Part shown: positions 367 to 3,275 of the stretch, piece by piece
Layout: every line of letters begins with the position of its first letter
Position numbering within the stretch: position 1 is the first letter of the stretch
Source: an uncultured Caulobacter sp.
GTDB lineage: Bacteria; Pseudomonadota; Alphaproteobacteria; Caulobacterales; Caulobacteraceae
NCBI RefSeq assembly: GCF_947036865.1
Contig: NZ_CAMQSF010000015.1
Span: 1 to 64,000, forward strand
Reading direction: 5' to 3'
DNA length: 64,000 nucleotides
Made by a program: the position numbers and the translations under genes
The notes under the pieces: model-generated
Told to the model about the DNA's origin: nothing
What the model saw: only the letters and a program-made list of their open reading frames with translations
The model's database searches: none

Positions 367-440
367 ATTTTCGGGGAGGCCGTCACGCGCCTTCTCGCCC
401 CGAGACGGGAGCCATCCTTTCATCTCACGGCGAGACGATC

Positions 441-531
441 GCAGGGCTGACCAAGTCACTCAAGGACGACGCTTCGCGTCGCCGCGACGCGGCCGGCGGA
501 GCCGGTCCTTGACTGACTTGGTCAGCCCTGC
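441..531. repeat. Inverted repeat with 27-bp arms (GCAGGGCTGACCAAGTCACTCAAGGAC / GTCCTTGACTGACTTGGTCAGCCCTGC)
   Basis: Arms 441-467 and 505-531 are reverse complements with one mismatch. Confidence 0.85.
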
Positions 532-625
532 ACGCTGCAGCCTCCGAGAGATGTAAGGACGGGTCCGCGCGGGGGCGCGGGCAGACGACGCAGGTGACCG
601 GATAGCGATTGATTAGATCGAAGGT

Positions 626-2401
626 CTACATAAATCGCCTAGCAAGCTCAGCCGCCTTCCGAGCCCCTTCAGCCTTCACCGTCGAGTCCCCTTCCCGCCA
701 GTAAAGGTCCTCACCTACATACGATAGTTCAGCCTGAGGCTGCACAGTGATGACAATGAGACCAAGTCCGTAATATGTATTGTAATCAATACTGGAAAGA
801 ACCGAGTCCCTCAAAGCGGTTGAGAGTTGGCTATTTTTTATTCCATCTTTCCATTTTGAAAAATATGATTCAGTAGAAATCCCGAGCCGCTTAGCTTCTC
901 TATTTACTCCAACAACGTATCGGGCACCTATTTTTACGGGCTCTACCCCATCTACTTCCTTAGCGCGGTTAGCGTGCTCCTCCTTATCGGTGACGCCAAT
1001 TATGATCTTGCCCATTGATTTTGGGCCGTTGTTTGCAATTGCGCTAATCGTGCGAACAACCTTTTGGATCATATTAGGCTCTTCGCCGCCCGATGGTGCG
1101 AGTGTTAACAGGCCTTGTTTAAGTTCGTAATTTGCGAGCTCGATCTCTGAGCGCCTTATAACTGCATCGATATCGACCACAGTATGATTGGCGTAAATCT
1201 CCTTAGCGAGGTCGGTAGAAGCGGAGAAGAACGGCGCAATAAGACCCTTAATAGCGTCCACGTTCTTACGCCGCTCTTCGACAGATGTGGAACTCCTATC
1301 GGTGTTGATACGCCCAGAAAGCATATCCAACGCCTTACGGATACCGGCATAGTCGGATATCTTCTTACGTTCCTTGATGAACATTTCATGGAAAGCGATC
1401 ATTATAATCGCAAATACAGACGAAAACGCATTGGTGCTCTTTCTTCCGTAAATTATATCACGTAGCTTCTCCCCGCCATTCACATTAGAAACTTTGAGAA
1501 TTTCCTGCACGCAAAAACCAAATTCATCCGTAAGTTTCTCACTACCGTAGACCTCTAGAGCAGTGAGAACTCGGTCAGCCTCCTTACTGCCTTCAAGATA
1601 TATTTCATCAAGGGCGTCTTTCGCCCGCTCGATCATTACGCCACCGACGATACAAGCAGCGATGTCAGCGATGCATTGCTCATCCATGCTATCCCGAAGG
1701 TCCGTAGACCTCAAAACACCCTGATTTACCCAAAAGACTTCATCAGCCTTGACCTCGTATCCATGACGAGTCTTCGGAAGGTCGATGCTTATGGATGGCA
1801 TTGAGCTCAGCGGAAGAATATCCGACGATACGTCGCCGCGCAGCTTACAAGCGATATCACGCACAAGCGTCGAAAATTCATTTTGCACGCCAGCTTGACG
1901 CCGTTCTTGATCACTCAATCGATGACCATACGTGTTGATTCTATCAAAGACATCATTAACTTCAGCTTCAGACGCATTTCTCATGACTGAAAGCGCGAGC
2001 GAATAATCTAATATTGTTGATACCTGCTTTTGATTTAAATATTTTTCCCCCAATTCGGCCATAAATACCCCTGAAGCCGCATATCCTTTGGCAGTTGGAA
2101 AAAATTCTAAGTTAAAGAGCGAGCCCTCTTCTGTTGAGAATGACGTCTCTATGAATGAGAGTATAGCGTGAAGGCGCTGAAGGCCGTCGATAATCTCGTA
2201 AGAACCCGCCGCGTCCTCTTTCTCAGCAATGAGAATAGCGGGAATAGGGTATCTGTTGAGGATAGAGTCGATCAGCTTCTGCTTCTCTTCCAGGGTCCAG
2301 ACTAATTTTCGCTGATAACGACGATTAACGAAAAGTCGATTTTCTCGGAACCAGTTGTACACGGACTGTATGGAGGTCGGTTGGGCAGCGAGATCCGCCA
2401 T
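626..2401 (-). CDS. DUF262-domain protein with C-terminal Schlafen AlbA_2-like domain; candidate defence/restriction-type protein
   Basis: N-term RRYQRKLVWTLEEKQKLIDSILNRYPIP, IIDGLQRLHAI and FDRINTYGHRLSDQERRQA match DUF262 motifs; C-term ELKQGL...RTISAIANNG...GKIIIGVTDK...LYWREGDSTVKAEG matches AlbA_2 pattern; gene visibly AT-richer than neighbours. Confidence 0.8.
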   Translation of the reverse strand: MADLAAQPTSIQSVYNWFRENRLFVNRRYQRKLVWTLEEKQKLIDSILNRYPIPAILIAEKEDAAGSYEIIDGLQRLHAILSFIETSFSTEEGSLFNLEFFPTAKGYAASGVFMAELGEKYLNQKQVSTILDYSLALSVMRNASEAEVNDVFDRINTYGHRLSDQERRQAGVQNEFSTLVRDIACKLRGDVSSDILPLSSMPSISIDLPKTRHGYEVKADEVFWVNQGVLRSTDLRDSMDEQCIADIAACIVGGVMIERAKDALDEIYLEGSKEADRVLTALEVYGSEKLTDEFGFCVQEILKVSNVNGGEKLRDIIYGRKSTNAFSSVFAIIMIAFHEMFIKERKKISDYAGIRKALDMLSGRINTDRSSTSVEERRKNVDAIKGLIAPFFSASTDLAKEIYANHTVVDIDAVIRRSEIELANYELKQGLLTLAPSGGEEPNMIQKVVRTISAIANNGPKSMGKIIIGVTDKEEHANRAKEVDGVEPVKIGARYVVGVNREAKRLGISTESYFSKWKDGIKNSQLSTALRDSVLSSIDYNTYYGLGLIVITVQPQAELSYVGEDLYWREGDSTVKAEGARKAAELARRFM

Positions 2402-2600
2402 TGTTGCTCCGGTCCCTGCAGCGAGAGTTTATTGCTACATGCGTAACGATCACTTCCCTAAAGCTCAACCCTAGAATCTTCCGCCCCCCACTCCCCGCCC
2501 CATCCATCCCCGCAATCCCCAACCGCCCCGCCTCCCCAGCCGCCGCGAAGCGCCCTATATCCTTGAGCTGACCTTCACCACGCTTCGGACCCTTCCAGGC

Positions 2601-3275
2601 TTGTCCACCCAGTTCAGACTGCCGCTGGCCGCCGCGCCGACCTATGCGCGGGAGGACTTCGTCGTTTCGCCGAGCAACGCCGAGGCCGTCGCGGCGGTCG
2701 ACGCCTGGCCGGACTGGCCCGAGGGAAGGCTGGCCCTGGTCGGGCCGGCGGGGTGCGGCAAGACGCATCTGGCGCGGGCCTGGGCGCGGGCCGTCGACGG
2801 CTTGGTGATCGAGGGCGACGCGGTGGTCGACCTGCCCGCCCTGCGCGGCCGGCCGGTGCTGGTCGAGGACGCCGACCAGCGGGCGGCGGGGCCGTTCGGC
2901 GAGACGCTGTTCCACATCCTCAACATGGCCGGGGTCGACGGCGGGACCGTGCTGCTGACCGGGCGGACCGCGCCGGTGGGCTGGGGGACGGCGGTGCCGG
3001 ACCTGCGCTCGCGGCTGAACGCCCTGCCCGTGGCGACCCTGGCCGAGCCGGACGACGCGGTGCTGACGGCGGTGCTGCAACGAGCCTTCGCGGCCGACTA
3101 CTGGAAGCCGGAGCCGGACTTCTACCCCTACCTCTTGTCGCGCCTGCCGCGCTCGGCGGCCGAGGTCCAGGCGATGGCGGCGCTGCTGATCGAGGCGGCG
3201 GCCGACGGGCGGCGGGCGATGACCAAGGCCCTGGCGCGCGAGGTGCTGGGGGATTTCGAGGGGGATGAGGACTAG
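2601..3275 (+). CDS. hdaA: HdaA/Hda-like DnaA regulatory inactivator (AAA+)
   Basis: Short DnaA-like AAA+ protein, Walker A GPAGCGKTH, N-terminal clamp-binding-like QFRLPL; TTG start; upstream of ppk. Confidence 0.85.
   Translation: MSTQFRLPLAAAPTYAREDFVVSPSNAEAVAAVDAWPDWPEGRLALVGPAGCGKTHLARAWARAVDGLVIEGDAVVDLPALRGRPVLVEDADQRAAGPFGETLFHILNMAGVDGGTVLLTGRTAPVGWGTAVPDLRSRLNALPVATLAEPDDAVLTAVLQRAFAADYWKPEPDFYPYLLSRLPRSAAEVQAMAALLIEAAADGRRAMTKALAREVLGDFEGDED

Follow-up and report, generated by a model that had tools for sequence, protein, structure and literature searches.

Three motifs, QR, DGQQR and FxxxN, have been reported for DUF262 domains (PMC12137116). In SspE, the last arginine of DGQQR is needed for GTPase activity (PMC13251355), and the DUF262 NTPase acts as a switch for the effector (PMC10952713, PMC13251355). 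DUF262 is paired with a non-HNH effector in Menshen and PD-T4-2 (PMC10952713). For Schlafen ribonucleases, the catalytic residues of SLFN13 are E205, E210 and D248, and the E205A and E210A variants are inactive (PMC5862951). The interval between gpA and gpQ of P2 phages is a hotspot of antiviral systems (PMC9122126).

The window (the whole stretch of DNA analyzed, 64,000 nucleotides from an uncultured Caulobacter sp.) encodes a protein that belongs to both the DUF262 and the Schlafen/AlbA_2 domain families. We confirmed the minus-strand open reading frame proposed in a preliminary description of this DNA: it has an ATG start, is uninterrupted by stops and encodes 591 aa, and every motif quoted earlier is present in the translation. 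Its position upstream of hdaA is also as described, and the two genes are divergent.

584..2492 (approximate), no strand assigned: foreign segment, delimited by aligning both flanks to relatives
626..2401, minus strand: gene for the 591-aa DUF262-Schlafen/AlbA_2 fusion (open reading frame, Pfam, family search and AF2 model)
2601..3275, plus strand: hdaA, which is conserved and borders the insertion hotspot on the right

A composition check bore out the suggestion that the gene is AT-richer than its surroundings. The GC content is 0.47 overall (about 0.46-0.48 along its length) compared with 0.67-0.76 in the flanks, and GC3 is 0.48, compared with 0.96 for hdaA, 0.95 for ppk and 0.93 for ppx. 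Only one copy is present in its own genome. No full-length homologue was identified in the 74 other genomes of the genus that were searched, and seven of these have matches to the N-terminal DUF262 part only. By its composition and distribution, the fusion gene is horizontally acquired, and not a vertically inherited core gene, which the preliminary description had named as a finding that would count against its reading.

The N-terminal DUF262 assignment made at the outset is well founded, as GmrSD_N was matched in the window protein and in all 60 of 60 full-length family members (Pfam). The module and the linker that follows it comprise these features:

1895..2356, minus strand: DUF262/GmrSD_N domain, residues 16-169, ParB/Srx-like (Pfam E=1.6e-22; Foldseek matches to BrxU and ParB)
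2309..2314, minus strand: QR motif, Q30-R31, at least 97% conserved among 81 relatives
2174..2188, minus strand: DGxQR motif, D72-G-L-Q-R76, an NTPase signature, with D, G, Q and R in 81/81
1934..1948, minus strand: FxxxN motif, F152-N156 (alignment of 81 relatives)
1208..1894, minus strand: helical linker, residues about 170-398 (AF2 secondary structure)

Among the 81 relatives, D72, G73, Q75, R76 and N156 are invariant, and the third position of DGxQR is L or M, as opposed to the Q of DGQQR. The AF2 model of the full-length protein (pLDDT 88.6, pTM 0.83) retrieved BrxU, ParB CTPases and the AlbA_2 protein DIP2311 in Foldseek, all with E of at least 0.001.

The C-terminal part is the proposed effector:

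629..1207, minus strand: Schlafen/AlbA_2 effector domain, residues 399-591 (Pfam on the family, AF2 model and fold search)
1139..1141, minus strand: E421, putative catalytic acid resembling SLFN13 E205, in 81/81
1124..1126, minus strand: E426, putative catalytic acid resembling SLFN13 E210, E in 79 and D in 2 of 81
1118..1120, minus strand: K428 of the E-x4-E-x-K motif, in 81/81
986..988, minus strand: D472 of the IGVxD motif, putative third acid and presumed equivalent of SLFN13 D248, in 80/81

The window protein by itself matches SLFN_AlbA_2 (PF04326) over residues 446-577 with E=5.7e-5 and 24.1 bits, which is below the curated cut-off of 25.3 bits. However, the same family was identified in 55/60 full-length relatives at E<=0.01 (best 3.9e-11). 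The AF2 model of the C-terminal domain (pLDDT 93.1) retrieved DIP2311 (2.6e-5), SLFN11, the tRNase domain of SAMD9 (probability 0.98) and SLFN13 (probability 0.96); the matches to SLFN11, SAMD9 and SLFN13 are modest but consistent, with E values of 3e-3 to 4e-3. No significant Schlafen match emerged when the PDB was searched by sequence, whether with the protein, with the family profiles or with the C-terminal profile; the Schlafen assignment of the C-terminus rests on Pfam and fold comparison. Because 55 of the 60 relatives match and the C-terminal model finds AlbA_2/Schlafen structures, we conclude that the AlbA_2 call, which the preliminary description had made from the letters of the sequence, is not due to chance.

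E421, K428, N457 and G469 are invariant among the 81 relatives. The two glutamates, E421 and E426, are spaced as in SLFN13 (five residues apart, like E205 and E210), and we infer from the IGVxD motif that D472 is the counterpart of D248. Thus defined, the putative E-E-D set (E421/E426/D472) is spaced like the RNase triad of SLFN13 and is conserved in the 81 relatives. No Pfam match to DUF1524/HNH was found in the window protein or among the families listed for the 60 relatives, in agreement with the absence of a DUF1524-type HNH motif reported earlier.

A genome scan seeded with a seven-sequence alignment yielded 476 candidates. The best 80 of these 476, which were retained, are 37-72% identical and nearly all full-length. 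Relatives span about ten phyla (including Pseudomonadota, Actinomycetota, Cyanobacteriota, Verrucomicrobiota, Myxococcota and Bacillota), and phyla are intermixed in the tree. The window gene is placed with proteins from Dongia, Rhodopseudomonas and Pseudomonas, close to a cyanobacterial protein. The window protein is 64% identical to a protein from a cyanobacterium. A near full-length relative is present in each of 144 plasmid records (e.g., from Escherichia, Citrobacter, Azotobacter, Polaromonas and Lactobacillaceae), often on conjugative plasmids. In E. coli, a near-full copy was identified in 105 genomes and any match in 803. WP_001262766.1 is a relative from an E. coli IncF plasmid. Most E. 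coli copies are interrupted at nt 1276-1284, where the AlbA_2 domain starts, by an insertion of the IS1 type (noted on the IncF plasmids L232 and L233); the 9-bp overlap there has the form of a target-site duplication. In another alphaproteobacterium, a C-terminal-only match (L011:1501-1809; 37% identity, residues 482-584) lies in a 214-aa open reading frame that lacks DUF262 and looks like a remnant.

More than 30 near full-length relatives were identified in viral contigs of IMG/VR, and no member was found at >=80% coverage in 50,697 GenBank phages. In ten of the viral contigs (L199, L201, L202, L204, L205, L206, L209, L215, L219 and L220) the gene is located between gpA and the portal gene gpQ. 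The L219 protein shares no more than about 30% identity with the protein of the window; thus, members of at least two family lineages have reached this position.

The chromosomal site was surveyed in the 34 genomes of the genus that have an EcsC-like gene beside hdaA. The interval between the two genes is empty in 8/34 (201-312 bp), intermediate in 4/34 and occupied by inserted DNA in 22/34, where it measures 1.0-2.8 kb and the lowest local GC is 0.34-0.50. The inserts are different AT-rich units of one or two genes, and nearly every cargo gene is unique. Pfam identified AbiJ_NTD4 with HEPN-type DUF7014, retron-like RVT_1, a DndB-like protein, HATPase with DUF4325, AAA_15 with DUF3226, AAA_21 with DUF4276, and GmrSD_N twice, once with FRG; PADLOC identified AbiLi, AriA, Old and similar. 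In this genus, the interval upstream of hdaA is a hotspot for insertions, many of them of defence type. Two genomes (L171, L185) have DUF262 genes without AlbA_2 at this site, one followed by a 155-aa gene and the other overlapping an FRG-domain gene. Cargo proteins of 451, 246 and 235 aa without a Pfam match (L173:5505-6857; L158, L170) may be encoded by defence genes not yet described.

A search of the window's genome for EcsC, the left border, revealed no match. Positions 6-204 of the window match DNA to the left of EcsC in relatives, and positions 248-580 match DNA to its right. Since alignment to relatives places the left flank on either side of EcsC, up to the edge of the cargo, the fusion gene is at the same hdaA site, from which EcsC appears to have been lost. 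A repeat marks the left edge:

386..580, no strand assigned: dispersed palindromic repeat at the left cargo edge (~190 bp, fold z-score -8)

This repeat is MITE- or REP-like and is scattered through the genus, with roughly 5-24 matches per genome; it also adjoins cargo in several relatives.

We did not identify a conserved operon partner, as no neighbouring gene recurs in more than 4 of 75 loci. The fusion gene therefore appears to act alone, as had been suggested for a single-gene islet. The defence context foreseen for homologues was recovered at the P2 gpA-gpQ and hdaA hotspots, but not among immediate neighbours, where defence families number about 8/134 compared with 6/134 for genes at least 4.5 kb away (rough counts, because the tallies list families and not proteins). 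Given the similar counts for near and far neighbours, general enrichment in defence islands is not claimed.

The conserved motifs, the fold matches of the C-terminal model, the lack of a partner, the location in the P2 and hdaA hotspots and the mobile carriage across phyla lead us to favour, with a probability of roughly 0.55, an antiviral system that was acquired horizontally and consists of a single gene. In it, a DUF262 sensor and NTP switch would control a Schlafen RNase that cuts RNA (likely tRNA) and not DNA. The cue sensed by the DUF262 part would come from the phage, most probably as modified or incoming DNA, and NTP binding and hydrolysis would serve as the switch, as in GmrSD, BrxU and SspE. 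The switch would release the Schlafen domain, which would then cleave RNA, most likely tRNA, halting translation and leading to abortive infection. RNA cleavage would here replace the DNA cleavage performed by the HNH domain of GmrSD enzymes. The NTP switch, tRNA cleavage and abortive infection are suggested by analogy with the DUF262 and Schlafen families. More tentatively, the family, which spans some ten phyla, may constitute a hitherto unnamed class of single-protein immunity, with a Schlafen tRNase under the control of the modified-DNA sensor known from type IV restriction.

The same sensor logic could instead govern an AlbA_2 domain that cuts or only binds DNA, making the protein a type IV-like restriction factor against modified foreign DNA. 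All DUF262-DUF1524 relatives act on DNA (PMC10952713), RefSeq names pieces of the E. coli copies 'AlbA family DNA-binding' or 'RNA-binding', and the PDB entry for DIP2311, the closest solved structure, has no annotation beyond its structural-genomics title. We nevertheless consider this reading unlikely. A Schlafen/SAMD9-type RNase fold with a catalytic-type E-E-D set makes RNA a likelier target than DNA, two tRNase structures are among the fold matches, and E-x4-E-x-K and IGVxD are conserved as in the catalytic RNase set, unlike in a mere binder.

It is distinctly improbable that the gene serves mobile elements in some accessory way not directed against phage (plasmid competition, or a toxin that stabilizes the element), as no antitoxin-like partner recurs in 75 loci and the gene is cargo in the P2 antiviral hotspot and, among defence-type genes, in the hdaA hotspot. 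Such a role would suit a gene that is common on conjugative plasmids and that on E. coli IncF plasmids adjoins PemIK, but PemIK is itself a complete pair. AlbA_2 domains are also found in regulators, and core genes (e.g., for aconitase and tRNA synthetases) adjoin many homologues, as might be expected of a host housekeeping or regulatory DNA- or RNA-binding protein. However, the missing full-length copy in the 74 other genomes of the genus, the foreign composition, the 64% identity to a cyanobacterial protein and the carriage on plasmids, in prophages and in chromosomal hotspots make that role very improbable.

If the one-gene antiviral reading is correct, the NTP switch of DUF262 would be a transferable sensor, suited to driving RNases and DNases alike. 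Recognition of DNA would then be coupled to an arrest of translation. This would parallel, in bacteria, the restriction exerted by animal Schlafen and SAMD9 proteins, and would link bacterial immunity with the Schlafen and SAMD9 restriction factors of humans. The full-length family is large (the best 80 of 476 candidates, 144 plasmid records, 105 E. coli genomes) but apparently uncharacterized, and because E. coli plasmids carry natural copies, the idea can be tested directly. The hdaA hotspot offers a small, easily surveyed store of candidate defence genes.

We found no literature description of DUF262 fused to AlbA_2, AAA_4 or Schlafen; a 2025 preprint on bacterial Schlafen proteins (10.1101/2025.07.24.666596, cited in PMC12839542), which is outside the searched scope, may include it. 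Toxin-antitoxin pairs have a cognate antitoxin alongside, whereas the 75 fusion loci have no conserved partner. SspABCD-SspE has linked sspABCD modification genes; the genes adjacent to the fusion at the 75 loci include no recurring neighbour. NsnA, which we take to be a component of Menshen, and PD-T4-2 resemble the N-terminal part: the PADLOC models NsnA (1.4e-32) and PD-T4-2_A (4.5e-18) match residues 5-184 only, and no PADLOC 2023 model spans the whole protein. Unlike in those systems, the effector is in the same gene, and no NsnB/NsnC-type partner recurs in the 75 loci. The Schlafen and SAMD9 RNases appear to share the AlbA_2 fold and the E-x4-E-x-K and IGVxD residues, but the fusion has a single AlbA_2 lobe, C-terminal and behind a DUF262 module. 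GmrSD, BrxU, SspE and GrwA share the N-terminal DUF262 with QR, DGxQR and FxxxN, the helical linker and a C-terminal nuclease-type domain in one polypeptide. They differ in the third residue of DGQQR (L or M in the fusion family) and in having DUF1524/HNH where the fusion protein has Schlafen/AlbA_2, and we do not file it as GmrSD because DUF1524 is absent. We regard the fusion as a new variant, in which two known modules, a GmrSD-like sensor and a Schlafen-type RNase, are joined in a new combination.
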